From positions 1 through 28,760 of the IMG/VR virus record IMGVR_UViG_3300027770_000203: a DNA stretch of 28,760 nucleotides; one strand, 5' to 3'. Source of the stretch: a virus. Shown here one piece after another: positions 5,900 to 27,685 of the stretch (within the stretch, counting starts at the first letter, position 1; every line of letters starts with the position of its first letter). The translations under genes and the position numbers were made by a program. The notes beneath the pieces were generated by a model. That model made no database searches. It was not told the origin of the DNA and saw only the letters and a program-made list of their open reading frames with translations.

Positions 5900-6441
5900 T
5901 CTGTTACCTCTGAATCATCGGAGACTCTGAAGCACTTGTAAGGCATGGCGCCTTTATCAAACCAGTCTGGCCCCAAGCAGTAAGTCTTGATGCTGCCAGG
6001 AGTAAGCAGATAACCAGCGCCGGGAGCGCAAGGACTGCAGAAACTGCAGAGTGTATAGAACTTTGAATCGGTAACAAAAATGTCACCGCCTGAGGCAACA
6101 TCGAATGTTACTCCCATCTCTCCCTCCTCTTCGTAATGGTATCTTGTGCAATCACCAGTGTTTTGATAGTCAATGTCTAAGTTATCAACAATCTCTTCGG
6201 CTATCTCATTCGCATCAAAATGCGTGGAGTAATCTTCCAGCACTGACTTAACAGCATGAGCCAAGGAAGAAAGAAGTTCATCTCTTGCATTTTCGTAGTC
6301 TACATCTACGCCATTTGCTTGAATTTCACTCCAAGCAAACTCTCCAAGTTCGTTGCCATGAATAACACCGTACCGAATTCCGGTATCAGTGTTAATGTTT
6401 GTCATTCCTCGTCCGTAATCAATGCCAGAGTAAGTTTCCAT
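5896..6441 (-). CDS. recurrent phage hypothetical protein (CSPCAPGAGYL family)
   Basis: 181 residues from ATG 6441, preceded by two AACTTTC motifs and no SD; the reading up to 6474 is leader. The N-terminus DYGRGMTNINTDTGIRYGVI and the C-terminal CSPCAPGAGYL...TYCLGPDWF are a combination I recognise from many phage and prophage hypothetical proteins. The Cys-Pro-Cys loop and later Cys could bind a metal, but that is inference. No function known. First gene of the P4 unit. Confidence 0.8.
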   Translation of the reverse strand: METYSGIDYGRGMTNINTDTGIRYGVIHGNELGEFAWSEIQANGVDVDYENARDELLSSLAHAVKSVLEDYSTHFDANEIAEEIVDNLDIDYQNTGDCTRYHYEEEGEMGVTFDVASGGDIFVTDSKFYTLCSFCSPCAPGAGYLLTPGSIKTYCLGPDWFDKGAMPYKCFRVSDDSEVTE

Positions 6442-6478
6442 TTTGTGAAAGTTGTGGAAGAAAGTTGGGAACAAAGTC

Positions 6479-6510
6479 TGCGACGAAAAGTAGTTACACC
6501 TCTCGCCGCA
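6479..6510 (-). promoter_or_regulatory. P4 leader stem-loop
   Basis: On the minus strand TGCGGCGA (6510-6503) pairs with TCGTCGCA (6486-6479), eight pairs with one G-U, around a loop containing GAGGTGTAACTACTTT, nearly the same loop as P1 and P2. Confidence 0.7.
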
Positions 6511-6517
6511 TGACAGT

Positions 6518-6546
6518 ATTATAGCACTTATTTAGTGCTGTGTCAA
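6518..6546 (-). promoter_or_regulatory. promoter P4 with spacer operator
   Basis: TTGACA (6546-6541), 17 bp, TATAAT (6523-6518). The repeat is AGCACT-AAATA-AGTGCT, with the last T shared with the -10 box. The arms are GCAC/GTGC instead of CCAC/GTGG, but symmetry is kept. It drives the 6441-3837 unit. Confidence 0.85.
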
Positions 6547-6555
6547 GTGAAAGAA

Positions 6556-7080
6556 TCAGCGATCACCAGCAATGTAGCGATTGAAGTATTCAAGCGACTG
6601 TTCATCGTTATCTTCAAGGGAATCTTCCTGCAAGTCTTCGTCTTCGTCTTCCTGATGAATCATGTTGTGCTCAATGTATTCGGATATAAGTGTAAATGGT
6701 ACGCCAATGTCATTCAGCGTTGTCAGTGAAACATGTTCACCGTTGTATCTTTTGACTATTACATCTCCAAACACTTCCACGGGCTCTTTAATTTCCGCCC
6801 ACTTAACAACCTCGTTCGGTAAATACCCCATGCAACCATTGATCAACCTTCCGCCATCAAATTCCCTAATTAGATAGCCGCCATTTAATGTATCATTTAA
6901 TCCATTGCATTCCAGCGATTCTTCCCAAGTAATGTCTGGATGATCTTTAACGTAAAGATCACACAAAACTCCCAAGCAACAGAAAGTGTTATCGCTGGGA
7001 TTGTGTAAACACTCTTGTCCTTGCTTGTACTCTTCAGATCGAAGAGCCTCGACCCACTGTTTCTTAATTTGCTTGTTCAT
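6556..7080 (-). CDS. recurrent phage hypothetical protein (CCLGVLCDL family), copy 2
   Basis: 174 residues from ATG 7080, preceded by AACTTTCAC. Opens with a basic helix (QIKKQWVEALRSEEYKQGQ), then the signature FCCLGVLCDLYV, and ends with LNDIGVPFTLISEYIEHNM and an acidic tail. This is a widespread hypothetical family of phages. It is a paralogue of the gene directly upstream (7108-7524), sharing the N-terminal helix, the Cys motif and the LNDxG...I...IE motif. The acidic tail (EDEDEDLQEDSLEDNDEQ) is unique to this copy. Confidence 0.8.
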   Translation of the reverse strand: MNKQIKKQWVEALRSEEYKQGQECLHNPSDNTFCCLGVLCDLYVKDHPDITWEESLECNGLNDTLNGGYLIREFDGGRLINGCMGYLPNEVVKWAEIKEPVEVFGDVIVKRYNGEHVSLTTLNDIGVPFTLISEYIEHNMIHQEDEDEDLQEDSLEDNDEQSLEYFNRYIAGDR

Positions 7081-7107: not shown

Positions 7108-7524
7108 TTAAAGGCATTCTTCAATGATAGAGGCAATCTCATCAAAAGAATGCCCACTATCGTTGAGTCCAGTAAGAGTCTCACCCCTTACAGAAACACA
7201 TCCGTCACAGTAAACAGTATCTTCATTTATTCCGGCCCATTTAGCGACAGACTTGGGTAACATCTCCGTATTGTTATCAACAGAGAACTCGTCAAAGGAA
7301 TCATAACTGTACGTCAATTGCAGGTATTCATCTTCGTCGTAAATTTCACTTGGTTCTTCTTCGTCGTCTCTTGCCTTCCATTCCCTGCTGTTCTCACTTA
7401 AGTAAAGATCACACAAAACTCCTAAGCAACAAAAATCGTCACCCTTCTTAAGCCAATTCTGTCCTTGCTTGTACTCTTTAGATCGAAGAGCCCCAACCCA
7501 AAGCTGTTTAATCTGTTGGTCCAT
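7108..7524 (-). CDS. recurrent phage hypothetical protein (CCLGVLCDL family), copy 1
   Basis: 138 residues from ATG 7524; the frame up to 7605 is the P5 leader. Signature motifs QIKQLWVGALRSKEYKQGQ, FCCLGVLCDLYL, KWAGI and LTGLNDSGHSFDEIASIIEE match copy 2 at 6556-7080. An acidic insert sits around residues 60-75. Two tandem copies behind one promoter point to local duplication followed by divergence, or separate acquisition of two alleles. Function unknown. Confidence 0.8.
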   Translation of the reverse strand: MDQQIKQLWVGALRSKEYKQGQNWLKKGDDFCCLGVLCDLYLSENSREWKARDDEEEPSEIYDEDEYLQLTYSYDSFDEFSVDNNTEMLPKSVAKWAGINEDTVYCDGCVSVRGETLTGLNDSGHSFDEIASIIEECL

Positions 7525-7558
7525 TTGAAAAGTTTGCGAGTGAGTAAGTAAAGTAAAG

Positions 7559-7585
7559 GCGAGAAAGTAAATACTCCTTGCTCGC
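7559..7585 (-). promoter_or_regulatory. P5 leader stem-loop
   Basis: On the minus strand GCGAG (7585-7581) pairs with CTCGC (7563-7559) around a loop starting CAAGGAG and ending TTTACTTT. It is the shortest arm but in the same position as the other leaders. Confidence 0.5.
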
Positions 7586-7593
7586 TTGTGTTG

Positions 7594-7622
7594 ATTATAC
7601 ACCACTTTTAGTGGTATGTCAA
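7594..7622 (-). promoter_or_regulatory. promoter P5 with perfect spacer operator
   Basis: TTGACA (7622-7617), 17 bp, TATAAT (7599-7594). The spacer has the perfect repeat ACCACT-AAA-AGTGGT. The TGA stop of the upstream gene (7619-7621) is inside the -35 box. It drives both CCLGVLCDL paralogues. Confidence 0.88.
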
Positions 7623-20921: not shown

Positions 20922-21647
20922 ATGTTAAATGATAGAACTGATGAGTTTTATGGTGCAAGACTTGTAGCCGATGCAAGACTACACCTTGGCGCCATCATCA
21001 ATGGACAATATTCAGAACCATTCTTTGTTACTATGTGTAAAATAATGAGTAACGAGGTATATCTTGGGTATAAAACGTTTGGGAATAGAGAGGTAAAGCT
21101 ATCTGGGATAAAAGATTTCTTTTTCAATTCAAGCTACGGACTTGGGGTAAAGCGTCCAGACCTCAACCAGTTTCTTGCAAATTGCACAAAAGCGGCGGTA
21201 AAGGATAAATCGCAAAGCCAGTATGCCTTTAAGTTTATCAAATGGCTCAGGGACCAAGACGATATATTCGACTTTCCAGCAGAATACTTTGAATACAAAA
21301 GGCTAAGGCTTACGATATTCAAGAAATACGCAAAGAATAGAAACGAAAGGTGGAAGCAGTTTCATTTAGCCGAAGGCCTTTATACGCACAACCCTGAACT
21401 ACTTTGTCAGATTGGGCCTGGACGTAAATACAAAGATGTTATAGAATGCTGCGATAAAGAAGGAATAAAAGAGTCGGTAAAGACAATCAAGCTTGAACTT
21501 TACTCAAGGCCAACAGTTCATCAGGTTCATCAAATTGCAAACAGGCTTCATGTTCGCCTGGACTCCTTGCACAGGAAAGCATTGATCGCTAGGCTTATCG
21601 AGCTATACAAGGAATCTGAGGCGAGTGATGAGACTTTTAGCGATTGA
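20922..21647 (+). CDS. hypothetical protein, 241 residues
   Basis: ATG 20922 follows GAAAGTAAGTA without a real SD. The N-terminal half is mixed; residues 85-160 are strongly basic and aromatic (KFIKWLRDQDDIFDFPAEYF, YKRLRLTIFKKYAKNRNERW). The C-terminal 60 residues are helical with VHQVHQIANRLHVRLDSLHRKALIARLIELY, which could be a helical protein- or DNA-contact domain (SAP-like by length, uncertain). It overlaps the resolvase gene by 20 bases. Function unknown. Confidence 0.7.
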   Translation: MLNDRTDEFYGARLVADARLHLGAIINGQYSEPFFVTMCKIMSNEVYLGYKTFGNREVKLSGIKDFFFNSSYGLGVKRPDLNQFLANCTKAAVKDKSQSQYAFKFIKWLRDQDDIFDFPAEYFEYKRLRLTIFKKYAKNRNERWKQFHLAEGLYTHNPELLCQIGPGRKYKDVIECCDKEGIKESVKTIKLELYSRPTVHQVHQIANRLHVRLDSLHRKALIARLIELYKESEASDETFSD

Positions 21648-22104
21648 TCCAGGGCCGGAAAAATCTGGCTATGTGATATGGGATGGCAGTCGCGTAATAA
21701 ATTCTGGCCATGAACTAAATGAAAAAATCAAAGAATCACTAATAGATGGATCTACTCATGTAGCAATAGAAATGATTGCTTCCTATGGTATGGCTGTTGG
21801 TGCATCCGTATTCAATACATGTGTAGAGATTGGAAAATTTGTAGAGCGTGTTAACATTTTTGCCCCAAATACTTCAGTTGAACTGATCTATAGGAACAGC
21901 GTTAAGGTATTTGTTTGCGGAACAGCGAAGGCAAAAGATACAAACATTCGACAATCTTTAATCGACTCGATAGGTGTTGTCGGCACAAAAGGCAGCCCTG
22001 GCCCGCTTTATGGAGTCAAAAGCCACGCTTGGGCAGCTCTTGCGGTCGCCGTTACGGCGGCAAATGATGTCAGGCTGCCTGGACACAAGCCGATTTCCGG
22101 CTGA
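21628..22104 (+). CDS. RuvC-like Holliday-junction resolvase
   Basis: 158 residues from ATG 21628, with GAGG five bases upstream; a GTG at 21625 is the alternative. The RNase-H-like active site shows D7 in LLAIDPGPEKSG, E48 in VAIEMIASYGMAVGASVFN, and a C-terminal GVKSHAWAALAVAVT. This is the pattern of a phage/plasmid RuvC-like family and not of E. coli RuvC; the final acidic residue of classical RuvC is not evident. It would cut branched intermediates made by the recombination module upstream. Confidence 0.85.
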   Translation: MRLLAIDPGPEKSGYVIWDGSRVINSGHELNEKIKESLIDGSTHVAIEMIASYGMAVGASVFNTCVEIGKFVERVNIFAPNTSVELIYRNSVKVFVCGTAKAKDTNIRQSLIDSIGVVGTKGSPGPLYGVKSHAWAALAVAVTAANDVRLPGHKPISG

Positions 22105-22108
22105 CTGC

Positions 22109-22137
22109 TTGCAAGCTGCCCGTAAGTGTGTTATCTT
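22109..22137 (+). promoter_or_regulatory. promoter of the AbrB-like gene
   Basis: TTGCAA (22109-22114), 17 bp, TATCTT (22132-22137), 23 bases before ATG 22161, with AAGGA as SD. The gene therefore has its own promoter and is closed by the terminator at 22740-22770. Confidence 0.6.
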
Positions 22138-22160
22138 TCATAGGCCAACAAGGAAGCCCA

Positions 22161-22718
22161 ATGGCAACCAAACGCCGTACCGCTGACACTGCCAGCGAAT
22201 CCACCGTCGAAACCGATTCCCCCGAAAACATGTCCGAAGTTATCGCCGAAGCTACCGACTCCAAAAAGCGGTCTGCCAAAACCCGTGAGTCTGGTACTCG
22301 TTTGACGGGTCAAGAGCTTCTTGCTTACACCGATACAAACGCTACGGCTGGTAAAACCGCCGAAGAGCTGGCGCTTGGTGCTGGTTATTTCACCAAGATC
22401 ACTGATACTGAAACTGGCGAAACGAAGACCAACATTCAAACGCAGGAATACTACAAGGTTGTCGCCGAGACTTCCCGTGGTATCACCATCGCCCCGAGCA
22501 AGCGTGTCTACGCCCCTCGCCGCAACCGCGCTCAGGCGATCACCGTTGGCGGCACCGGCAACTGTGTCGTTGGCGTCCGCTACACCGCTCAGGCGGGCTA
22601 CGAGCCCGGTTCCAAGGTGTCTGTGGTAGTGGAAGGCAACCGGGTCATCCTGTCGCCCTTTGTGGAGTCCGAGGGCGCCGATGAGGATCAGTCCGAAAGC
22701 GAAGACATGGACCTCTGA
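22161..22718 (+). CDS. cyanobacterial AbrB-type transcription regulator-like protein
   Basis: 185 residues from ATG 22161 with SD AAGGA. After a Ser/Thr/Glu-rich leader (1-45) comes LTGQELLAYTDTN and GAGYFTKITD...TKTNIQTQEYYKVV (48-101), which matches the N-terminal module of cyanobacterial AbrB-like (cyAbrB) regulators of carbon and nitrogen metabolism. Residues 127-167 (ITVGGTGNCVVGVRYTAQAG, EPGSKVSVVVEGNRVILSP) match the swapped-hairpin AbrB DNA-binding part. The acidic tail is unusual. Codon use is more GC-rich than the neighbours. It is a monocistronic unit, so probably made in quantity. Confidence 0.8.
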   Translation: MATKRRTADTASESTVETDSPENMSEVIAEATDSKKRSAKTRESGTRLTGQELLAYTDTNATAGKTAEELALGAGYFTKITDTETGETKTNIQTQEYYKVVAETSRGITIAPSKRVYAPRRNRAQAITVGGTGNCVVGVRYTAQAGYEPGSKVSVVVEGNRVILSPFVESEGADEDQSESEDMDL

Positions 22719-22724
22719 TAGCCT

Positions 22725-22733
22725 TGCTACTAT
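22725..22733 (+). promoter_or_regulatory. TTGCTACTAT box (extended -10-like)
   Basis: TTGCTACTATC sits just after the AbrB-like stop and before the terminator. It has a TGC-extended -10 but no recognisable -35. Its location directly before a terminator is odd: transcripts from it would be attenuated before MazG. Confidence 0.3.
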
Positions 22734-22739
22734 CGTCTG

Positions 22740-22770
22740 GAAGCCCCATTTTAACATGGGGCTTCTTTTT
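22740..22770 (+). terminator. intrinsic terminator after the AbrB-like gene
   Basis: GAAGCCCCAT (22740-22749) and ATGGGGCTTC (22756-22765) form a perfect ten-pair stem with a six-base loop, followed by TTTTT. Confidence 0.92.
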
Positions 22771-22788
22771 ACCTGCAATCAACAAAGC

Positions 22789-23187
22789 ATGGGACTCCTT
22801 CAATCACAAGCTGCCGTGTGGCGCCAAGCGTTTGAAGTTGAAAGTAATCGAGAAAAAGGATCTCAGCAATTTAATCTTCAGATTCATCTCATTCAAGAGG
22901 AGTACGGCGAAACACTTGAAGCTCTTTTTGCGCTTGATACAAGTAGCACAGAGAGTAAAGCTGAAGCCCTAAAGGAGCTTGCTGATCTCGTCTTTGTCTG
23001 CTATCAAGCAGCCGAAAACATGGGGTGGGATCTTGACGAAGCTATACAAAGGGTATTTATCAGCAATATGTCAAAGCTTGATGATAGTGGTAGAGCAATT
23101 AGAAACAACAAGGGGAAAGTCCTGAAGGGGCCAAAGTATTGCCTGCCCTCACTCAATGATCTTGTAGAAGATGAACCAAAAGAATGA
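22789..23187 (+). CDS. mazG: MazG-like nucleotide pyrophosphohydrolase
   Basis: 132 residues from ATG 22789, after the terminator. The all-alpha NTP-pyrophosphatase pattern is present: LQIHLIQEEYGETLEAL (E-E-x-x-E) near residues 30-46, then EALKELADLVFVCYQAAENMGWDLDEAI (E-x-x-D) and VFISNMSKLDDSG at about 88-100, as in phage MazG/HisE-like proteins. These hydrolyse nucleoside triphosphates and in cyanophages are thought to adjust host nucleotide pools. The C-terminus GPKYCLPSL is typical for phage members. Confidence 0.85.
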   Translation: MGLLQSQAAVWRQAFEVESNREKGSQQFNLQIHLIQEEYGETLEALFALDTSSTESKAEALKELADLVFVCYQAAENMGWDLDEAIQRVFISNMSKLDDSGRAIRNNKGKVLKGPKYCLPSLNDLVEDEPKE

Positions 23188-23416: not shown

Positions 23417-24283
23417 ATGAACGAGCAGGCGTATCTCAACGAAATCGGGAGATACCCTCTCTTAACCAAGAGTCAGGAGCTTGGCTTAGGTGCACAGATA
23501 CAAGCTTGGCTAAGTATCAATAAAGAAGAAAGCGAATATACGGATGAAGAAAAACAAATAGCAAAAGCCGGAAAAAGGGCGAGGCAAAAGTTTGTCAACT
23601 GTAATCTAAGACTTGTTATTGGCATTGCTAGAAAATACTCTGGCTCTTGCAATACACTTGACTTAATGGATTTAATACAAGAAGGAAATAAGGGACTCAT
23701 AAGAGCTGTAGAAAAGTTTGACCCTAAACTTGGATACGCAATGAGTACATATTCATATTGGTGGATAAGGCAGGCTATACAGAGGGGAATTCATTCCAGC
23801 GAATCTGCGATCAAAATCCCTTGCAACGTCAGGGAGTCATTAAGCAAGATTAAGAAAAGTATTGAACAGTTTGAAAAGAAGCACTTGCGTTCGCCAACAG
23901 CCAAGGAAATCGCCAGAAACTGCGAACTATCAGTTGAAGATGTTGAAATTGCAATGAACATTCCGAAGGTTCAAGTAAGTCTTGATGCTCCTACTGGTCA
24001 GGATAACGACTCAGTTGCATTGATTAACTTTATATGCGATGAACAAACCAGCAATGCAATTGAAGATGCGGAGGAGAGAATTCAACTTGAGTCACTGAAA
24101 ACAGCAATTAACAATCTTGACGAGATAAGTAAGTTTATTATTACTGAAAGAATGCTCAACCCACCAACGTCTTGGAAAAAGCTTGCCTCGCTTACAGGTA
24201 TGGGAGTTACAAAATTACGGCAAATCGAGTTACTTGCTATCAATCGTTGCTCACTTCTGATTCGCTTGGAAAGCCAAGTATAA
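23417..24283 (+). CDS. sigma-70 family RNA polymerase sigma factor
   Basis: 288 residues from ATG 23417; the upstream 15 codons are rejected as low-quality sequence. Region 1.2: AYLNEIGRYPLLTKSQE (5-21). Region 2: RARQKFVNCNLRLVIGIARK (54-73), LDLMDLIQEGNKGLIRAVEK (81-100), YSYWWIRQAIQRGI (112-125). Region 3: IKIPCNVRESLSKI with RSPTAKEIAR (132-167). Region 4 (225-284) is diverged, but VTKLRQIELLAINR (264-277) keeps the recognition-helix frame. It should redirect host RNA polymerase. The NEIGRYPLLT start resembles cyanobacterial primary and group 2 sigmas, so capture from a host is likely. Confidence 0.92.
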   Translation: MNEQAYLNEIGRYPLLTKSQELGLGAQIQAWLSINKEESEYTDEEKQIAKAGKRARQKFVNCNLRLVIGIARKYSGSCNTLDLMDLIQEGNKGLIRAVEKFDPKLGYAMSTYSYWWIRQAIQRGIHSSESAIKIPCNVRESLSKIKKSIEQFEKKHLRSPTAKEIARNCELSVEDVEIAMNIPKVQVSLDAPTGQDNDSVALINFICDEQTSNAIEDAEERIQLESLKTAINNLDEISKFIITERMLNPPTSWKKLASLTGMGVTKLRQIELLAINRCSLLIRLESQV

Positions 24284-24377: not shown

Positions 24378-24599
24378 ATGCAGACCAAGAAACACTGGAG
24401 CGACAGCTCTGCGGCACAAGCTGTTGGAACAGCTATTGTCACCATTATCAGTATTGGACTTATTTCCATACCTTTTTTCTTAATATTTGCAGTAGTTCCA
24501 GCTTACTTTGAAGCATCAGCCTTCAATCGACTTACCACTGGTCCGAAGGTTTCAGTTTTTGATGCAGTTTTCCTTGATCTTCGCATAGAAGCAAAATGA
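24378..24599 (+). CDS. small single-pass membrane protein
   Basis: 73 residues from ATG 24378; earlier in-frame ATGs lie within a possible promoter (TTGACT at 24306). A hydrophobic segment of about 23 residues (AIVTIISIGLISIPFFLIFAV) is followed by YFEASAFNRLTTGPKVSVFD and AVFLDLR, a combination I recall from small phage membrane proteins. It likely sits in the inner membrane; no function is established. The stop overlaps the next ATG (ATGA). Confidence 0.65.
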   Translation: MQTKKHWSDSSAAQAVGTAIVTIISIGLISIPFFLIFAVVPAYFEASAFNRLTTGPKVSVFDAVFLDLRIEAK

Positions 24600-25066
24600 C
24601 CACACCCGACTTTCGCGCTTTATGCGAAGAGCTGCTGGCCGCTGCTGACGAGTACGCCGGTATGAATCCCTACATGAAACTGGACAACGCAATGAAAGCC
24701 GCCCGCACCGCCCTGGCTGCCACCACCCCCGAGGCCGCTCCGGTGGCCACGGATGAGGATCTGTGGAGCCTGTGGGCCAACCGCCCAAATTTGCCGAACT
24801 CATCTGCCGCTGCCCTCCGCGCCTGCTACAACCTGGGCCGCCAGCACGGCGCCGCCCAGCCCCCAGCCGCCCAGCCGGAGCCGCCTGTCGCGCCCAAAGA
24901 GAAGTCTGCACTTGCTCAGCAGGCGTATGTTGCTTTTGTGCAGATTTGCAAGGGCAACTCTGACGACGCTGGCACCTATGCAGAAGACGAGGAGCTTGTT
25001 CGGCAGGCCCTAAAGCGTCTTGACGATTTGGAGCAAGTAGCCGCCCAGCCGGAGGTTAGTGGGTAA
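24596..25066 (+). CDS. GC-rich cyanophage/cyanobacterial hypothetical protein
   Basis: 156 residues from ATG 24596. MTTPDFRALCEELLAAADEY is a start I associate with many Synechococcus/Cyanobium phage and prophage proteins. A short helical domain is followed by an Ala/Pro/Gln-rich linker (residues about 80-102) and a helical C-terminus. GC content is clearly higher than in flanking genes, hinting at recent transfer from a GC-rich relative. Function unknown. Confidence 0.75.
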   Translation: MTTPDFRALCEELLAAADEYAGMNPYMKLDNAMKAARTALAATTPEAAPVATDEDLWSLWANRPNLPNSSAAALRACYNLGRQHGAAQPPAAQPEPPVAPKEKSALAQQAYVAFVQICKGNSDDAGTYAEDEELVRQALKRLDDLEQVAAQPEVSG

Positions 25067-26942: not shown

Positions 26943-27141
26943 GACACAGCCACAGTCAGTTCAGTCTAATCGAAACAACGAAATGCCCTATGTCACCGTT
27001 GGCACAGACAAAAGCGGTTCGGCCTGTTGGGTCGTTATCGAAGGAGAAAAGATAACGAGATTTTCGGGCGGCAAAGAAGCATTCAAAGCCTTAGGTGTAG
27101 CTATGGGAGAATACGGTGAACCCAGGCTTGGCCAAGATTAA
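26941..27141 (+). CDS. small hypothetical protein
   Basis: 66 residues from ATG 26941, with AGAGGG six bases upstream. The chain YVTVGTDKSGSACWVVIEGE, ITRFSGGKEAFKALGVAMGE looks like a small folded domain (two beta hairpins and a helix). It overlaps the convergent peptidase gene by 41 bases. It is the last plus-strand gene of the window. Family not recognised. Confidence 0.7.
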   Translation: MTQPQSVQSNRNNEMPYVTVGTDKSGSACWVVIEGEKITRFSGGKEAFKALGVAMGEYGEPRLGQD

Positions 27142-27685
27142 CATTTTGGATCTCCTTGCTGCGATAACGGTTGTTTGCATCCCATTTACTTGTTCCGGCG
27201 ACACAGGCGGCATAGATAATTCTATCGCTGTAGAAGCCATCAAAGAATTTTACAGTTGGCTTGTTGTAGCTCCAGGACAAACCATCAAACTCACTCCACG
27301 GATCTTTTACGTTAAAGCTTGAACAATTGTTCTCGTTTAGCCTTACGCCATCAAGTGCGATAACGTGACCGCTACCAGTGAACCAGCCGTGAGTAATCAA
27401 GAACTCACCGGCTTTCAAGTATGTCACCATGTCATTGATAGAAGCGCTTTCATCGTAGATGTACTTTTTCCCCTTGAAGCGCCTGAGAACTTGTCCCATA
27501 TTCGACGGATGGCCAGCTTCACCTAATCGAATCAACTGGCTCCTAATGTCGTAAATATCTTTTGTGCCAATTGCCATTGCAATGCAGGCAGATTGACAAG
27601 TGCTGCCATCAGGCTGGGATAAGTTCAAAGCACGAACCTTTGTACCCCACTCAGACTGCATTTGATTCGGCGCTGGTTGAGTCAT
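27101..27685 (-). CDS. C39-like cysteine peptidase, possible endolysin
   Basis: 194 residues from ATG 27685, five bases after the upstream stop; the reading up to 27727 overlaps that gene. The papain-like pattern is clear: SQPDGSTCQSACIAMAIG with C30 as nucleophile, GSGHVIALDGV with H107, and FNVKDPW with D128. Phage proteins of this C39-like type are frequently endolysins or accessory peptidases. It follows a holin candidate and two small genes on the same strand, which favours a lysis role. No cell-wall-binding domain is evident; the C-terminus is probably structural. Confidence 0.78.
   Translation of the reverse strand: MTQPAPNQMQSEWGTKVRALNLSQPDGSTCQSACIAMAIGTKDIYDIRSQLIRLGEAGHPSNMGQVLRRFKGKKYIYDESASINDMVTYLKAGEFLITHGWFTGSGHVIALDGVRLNENNCSSFNVKDPWSEFDGLSWSYNKPTVKFFDGFYSDRIIYAACVAGTSKWDANNRYRSKEIQNVNLGQAWVHRILP

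Follow-up and report, generated by a model that had tools for sequence, protein, structure and literature searches.

A two-domain homologue of the cyanobacterial cyAbrB proteins is encoded in the window, i.e. the whole 28.8-kb stretch of DNA analysed here, an IMG/VR virus record of a phage with about 44% GC that is probably a fragment of a larger genome. The gene appears to form a transcription unit of its own, and its product may interfere with silencing by host cyAbrB. A cyAbrB-like regulator gene had originally been predicted at positions 22161-22770 from the sequence; the open reading frame was confirmed, and its homology was established by a host profile and by profile-profile alignment. 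The ORF runs from an ATG at 22161 to a TGA at 22716-22718 and encodes 185 aa (Table 1). A version of 196 aa with a GTG start at 22128 was rejected because it overlaps the promoter. The gene is under purifying selection, with a dN/dS of 0.14 between the window and a copy of 98% identity and of 0.07-0.20 among closer pairs of family members. In comparisons of distant copies, synonymous changes approach saturation, with dS about 1.2.

Table 1. Coordinates of the cyAbrB-like gene, its signals, the parts of its product and its neighbours in the window
Feature	Position	Strand	Basis
RuvC-like Holliday junction resolvase, upstream neighbour	21628-22104	+	phrog_1770, E 1e-16
Promoter: -35 TTGCAA (22109-22114), 17-bp spacer, -10 TATCTT (22132-22137)	22109-22137	+	conserved in family
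Shine-Dalgarno-like AAGGA, 6 nt before ATG	22150-22154	+	sequence
cyAbrB-like gene, stop TGA included	22161-22718	+	ORF call, homology, dN/dS against the 98% copy
Residues 1-45, N-terminal extension, low-confidence, probably disordered	22161-22295	+	residues 1-40 modelled with pLDDT of about 40-47
Residues 46-108, cyAbrB N-terminal domain (LTGxELL...GAGY...)	22296-22484	+	helix-helix-strand-strand-helix; alignment, model
Residues 120-166, AbrB-type domain	22518-22658	+	strand-strand-helix-strand-strand; PF14250 sub-threshold, Foldseek/VIA matches to AbrB, SpoVT, MazE
Residues 167-185, acidic C-terminal tail ending in the conserved SEDMDL	22659-22715	+	tip pattern in all 16 family proteins and none of 113 hosts
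Intrinsic terminator: 11-bp stem (hairpin 22739-22766), 6-nt loop, T run	22739-22771	+	terminator scan, conservation
MazG-like pyrophosphohydrolase, downstream neighbour	22789-23187	+	Pfam/PHROG; order kept in relatives
Sigma-70 family factor	23420-24283	+	nearest: cyanophages S-CBS1, S-CBS3, KBS-S-2A

A profile made from 113 host cyAbrBs only gave the window protein 42 bits, compared with 8.5 bits for the best of 2000 shuffled sequences and 3.0 bits for the next ORF of the window. When the phage-only profile was aligned with the host-only profile by hhalign, a probability of 95.7% (E 1e-8) was obtained over 119 columns covering both domains. A search with the window protein alone was already positive in 271 of 291 cyanobacterial genomes (E<=0.01; best E 2e-10), the best host alignments spanning residues about 35-180. 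In full-length alignments, in hhalign and in the structural model the N-terminal cyAbrB domain is followed by the AbrB-type domain. With 17.5 bits the protein stays under the gathering cut-off of Pfam PF14250 (25 bits) because it is very divergent. Its family relatives also score below this value (19.7-21.4 bits), and the phage copies L250 (42.7 bits) and L251 (28.9 bits) pass it. The window protein is therefore classed as a divergent homologue that falls short of the curated PF14250 limit and not as a canonical cyAbrB1 or cyAbrB2. The predicted structure contains a SpoVT-AbrB swapped-hairpin-type unit with its elements at residues 127-166, and the top Foldseek matches of the C-terminal domain in the PDB were AbrB (probability 0.96), SpoVT and MazE, with E-values of 0.1 or more. 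Among known structures the N-terminal domain matched helix-turn-helix proteins only weakly (Z 3-4). Confidence in the models is moderate, and phage and host models were both built from alignments mixing host and phage rows; the fold is taken as supporting evidence only.

Membership in a phage structural-protein family, which the original prediction had set against an AbrB identity, can be rejected. A PHROG search with the window protein gave no match, Foldseek led to AbrB, SpoVT and MazE, and the best viral match was an AbrB-family phage protein (E 6e-7). Relatives of the gene were located by way of two neighbouring genes, RuvC and DnaB, and afterwards with a phage-only alignment. They define a family of 24 IMG/VR contigs besides the window, with 16 distinct complete proteins that are 44-98% identical to the window protein. 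The window protein and an approximate host cyAbrB sequence, each used as query against the collection of phage records, gave no match, nor did a scan of viral contigs with a host-derived pattern. The approximate host query, which itself supports no conclusion, matched plasmid copies, and the real host sequences were taken there.

The family proteins differ from host cyAbrB at several conserved positions. The redox cysteine preceding the invariant GY is present in 94% of the 113 hosts and is replaced by alanine in all 16 family proteins (Ala74 in the window); alanine is found at this position in 6% of the hosts as well. The cysteine is also absent from L250, L251, B23 and P-TIM68, which belong to four other cyanophage lineages. 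AbrB2 of Synechocystis has a single conserved cysteine, which is glutathionylated with effects on oligomerization and DNA binding (PMC4264147). Because there is one conserved cysteine in the family, the residue lost in the phages would correspond to this site. The AbrB domain of the phage family contains a new cysteine, Cys135, without exception. Of 14 lysine or arginine columns conserved in hosts, 10 have lost the basic residue, among them those of the RKH motif in the last hairpin. The proteins carry a net charge of about -4 to -9, compared with a host mean of +1.5. Loss of the basic residues may not equal loss of DNA binding. The claim of an added acidic tail holds in part. The last 19 residues of the window protein have a net charge of -9, but acidic tails are common among host cyAbrBs too. 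What the phages have added is the exact tip of the [DE][LM]D[LI] type, in which every complete family protein and none of the host proteins ends.

The promoter was revealed by comparison among relatives; a generic sigma-70 scan of the window had not flagged it. The pattern TTGCA[AG]-N17-TANNTT is found 23-25 nt before the ATG in each of the 14 distinct regions upstream of family genes. The pattern occurs once in the window, once in the relative G303 and twice each in G295 and G296, and the occurrences always include the cyAbrB site. In sigma-70 promoters the most important positions are the TTG of the -35 and the T, A and final T of the -10 element, and precisely these are invariant in the family. 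The -10 of many relatives falls within an inverted repeat, GTGCTANNTTGCAC, the equivalent of which in the window (22128-22141) has decayed, and the -35 sits within an 8-bp palindrome, CTTGCAAG; together they are a possible operator. Downstream of the stop codon all complete members have a hairpin and a T run, with stems and loops that differ and co-vary. The promoter pattern persists in relatives with as little as about 45% protein identity, also where a different gene has come to lie upstream. Judged by these sequence features the phage gene is a single-gene transcription unit. The original description of a self-contained unit with its own promoter and a strong terminator was thus borne out, as both elements are kept even where the upstream gene has been swapped. 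The Shine-Dalgarno sequence described at the same time is shared by the window and the 98% copy and is absent from the other relatives.

The gene lies in a replication and recombination module. Its neighbours in the window include genes for a DnaB-like helicase, an ERF annealing protein, an exonuclease, SSB, the RuvC-like resolvase, the MazG-like protein, the sigma-70 factor and dCTP deaminase. Records of 38, 41 and 71 kb keep its place between resolvase and MazG. The window and G295 have a RuvC-like resolvase upstream and G296 (6342-6908) a RusA-like one (phrog_140), with the flanking order preserved; by sequence this is a non-homologous replacement. In G303 an additional ORF (27103-27510; about 136 aa, including a hydrophobic stretch) is found between the cyAbrB terminator and MazG. 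An extra ORF precedes MazG also in L236, L238, L239, L241 and L242, and a similar one is present in L245 and L247. The sigma factor of the window is 34-42% identical to those of S-CBS1, KBS-S-2A and S-CBS3. Because of this cyanophage-type sigma factor and the cyAbrB gene itself, the host of these phages is likely to be a cyanobacterium.

The position of the gene could indicate a nucleoid-type or transcription regulator belonging to the phage itself, which would act on phage DNA in an early/late switch or in the protection or compaction of replicating DNA and leave host cyAbrB uninvolved. The tips of SSB proteins recruit replication or recombination proteins, and the conserved acidic tip of the phage family may do likewise. 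A fixed place in the replication/recombination module and, in many relatives, a possible operator-like inverted repeat over the -10 would fit such a regulator as well. However, most of the host-conserved basic residues are lost, and on the phage genome no site family was found besides the promoter itself. We regard this explanation as somewhat doubtful.

The codon composition of the gene bears on the amount of product. As originally noted, its codons are richer in GC than those of its neighbours: GC is 0.57 and GC3 0.63, against a GC3 of about 0.35-0.45 in the neighbours. The GC3 of every complete family copy lies between 0.56 and 0.66, including copies only about 45% identical, whereas the gene-mean GC3 in three relatives is 0.42-0.46. 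C-ending codons are enriched in the cyAbrB-like genes (0.68-0.76 against medians of 0.35-0.43). In G303 its GC3 equals that of the gene for the major head protein (phrog_247, 0.62), with which it is also on a par in C-ending codons. Recent transfer from a GC-rich host was rejected as the cause, as GC3 is high in copies down to about 45% identity; this points to selection rather than foreignness, and the near-saturation of dS between distant copies makes a recent acquisition a poor explanation too. The simplest reading would be selection for high expression. A conserved promoter of a strong type, a terminator and a head-gene-like GC3 together suggest an abundant product, which would fit a nucleoid-type or dominant-negative protein. 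The same GC3 could be expected of a virion-packaged or co-injected DNA-associated protein, and in the T7-like phages L250 and MedDCM-OCT-S39-C11 the cyAbrB gene is indeed located in the structural module among tail and internal-virion genes. In the family of the window, by contrast, the gene has its own host-type promoter in the replication/recombination module, and a virion role seems very improbable.

Other genes of these phages also have a high GC3. A second GC-rich gene of the window (24596-25066, + strand; GC 0.63, GC3 0.69) had no match in Pfam or PHROG and could represent inserted DNA or a further gene with high expression. The top GC3 of G303 and G296 (0.74-0.76) belongs to an ORF of 225-254 aa with the motif MTRT[TK]KTAN, located at 69341-70102 in G303 (L264:9341-10102, - strand) and at 31594-32268 in G296 (L257:11594-12268, + strand). 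The G303 copy gave no Pfam or PHROG match and the G296 copy no PHROG match. Elsewhere in the window, within an arm of unknown genes, two adjacent small proteins encoded at 6556-7080 and 7108-7605 (- strand) are alike (..QIKKQWVEALRSEEYKQGQ.. and ..QIKQLWVGALRSKEYKQGQ..), apparently as a result of tandem duplication.

In the phylogenetic tree all phage rows are on one side of a branch, separate from all host rows, and the family of the window has its own long branch. The tree was a quick search with SH-aLRT support only and long branches, and the safe reading is that the phage proteins are not nested in a sampled host clade; it thus gives no sign of recent uptake from a host. No phage-type cyAbrB copy was found in 291 genomes of the class, in 251 of the family of G131 or in 38 of another family. 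These results bear on the original suggestion that the protein is an auxiliary regulator which reprograms host carbon and nitrogen metabolism. Mutants of host cyAbrB2 do show altered expression of carbon and nitrogen genes (PMC11368403). But the phage protein lies outside the sampled host clades with a best host identity of about 36%, it has lost the redox cysteine and most basic residues, and its gene is in the replication/recombination module with no metabolic genes found beside it. The suggestion is thus unsupported, and we think it improbable.

Current literature makes nucleoid silencing the first function to consider. Host cyAbrB2 coats and represses long AT-rich tracts and insertion elements, and in 2024 it was proposed to be a nucleoid-associated protein like H-NS and Lsr2 (PMC11368403). 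Islands and phages carry homologues of silencers, of which truncated or acquired forms act as dominant negatives or modulators (PMC7074111), and phage-borne homologues of xenogeneic silencers are known elsewhere (PMC8612146). Since cyAbrB2 is a silencer and silencer homologues occur on mobile elements, interference with cyAbrB silencing, or its redirection, by a nucleoid-type protein that the phage makes in abundance is the most economical mechanism, and we favour it tentatively. The phage protein would accumulate in the infected cell and join the network of host cyAbrB, either in mixed oligomers or by competition for DNA, and silencing of the phage genome would be weakened. Lacking the conserved redox cysteine, it could not be switched off by the host by that route. 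We infer all three steps, i.e. abundance, the meeting with host cyAbrB and its counteraction. The mixed oligomers are a guess. With a GC content of 42-47%, the family phages need not be AT-rich relative to their host. A more detailed version, which we hold to be doubtful, is a counter-silencer derived from the host's silencer that would be redox-blind and charge-reduced, would have a recruiting acidic tip and would mix into cyAbrB coats on phage DNA and loosen them; by analogy the protein of P-TIM68 could be a second, H-NST-like solution.

Should phages of cyanobacteria carry a cyAbrB of their own in altered form, the silencing of foreign DNA is probably of importance in these infections. The conserved phage protein would offer a handle on silencing during infection. 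As a naturally occurring cyAbrB that lacks the redox cysteine, it would also be of help in telling the effects of redox control and of DNA coating apart.

A literature search found no paper substantively linking cyAbrB with phages, and one public phage record, MedDCM-OCT-S39-C11 (an uncultured Krakvirus), already carries the annotation 'AbrB family transcriptional regulator'. Its protein and that of L250 are phage-borne, have both domains and lack the redox cysteine like the window protein, but they are shorter, score above the Pfam cut-off and have no tip. The T4-like Prochlorococcus phage P-TIM68 (L252, 55868-56026) encodes a protein of 52 aa, annotated as hypothetical, that consists of the cyAbrB N-terminal domain only and recalls truncated antagonists of the H-NST type; an N-terminal-domain protein is also present in Synechococcus phage B23. 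Host cyAbrB1 and cyAbrB2 (PF14250 plus N-terminal domain; AbrB1 and AbrB2 of Synechocystis) share with the phage family both domains, their order, full-length alignment and the predicted secondary structure. Identity is only 20-36%, however, and the family lacks the redox cysteine, the RKH motif and most conserved lysines and adds a 40-aa N-terminal extension, a fixed acidic tip and a net negative charge. AbrB/SpoVT of Bacillus and the MazE antitoxins have the fold of the C-terminal domain without the cyAbrB N-terminal domain, at 10-18% sequence identity. H-NST, CgpS and the Lsr2 of actinophages are likewise copies of a host nucleoid silencer on mobile elements and often diverged (PMC7074111, PMC8612146). 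Their fold is unrelated and their functions have been partly tested, whereas phage cyAbrB is known from sequence.
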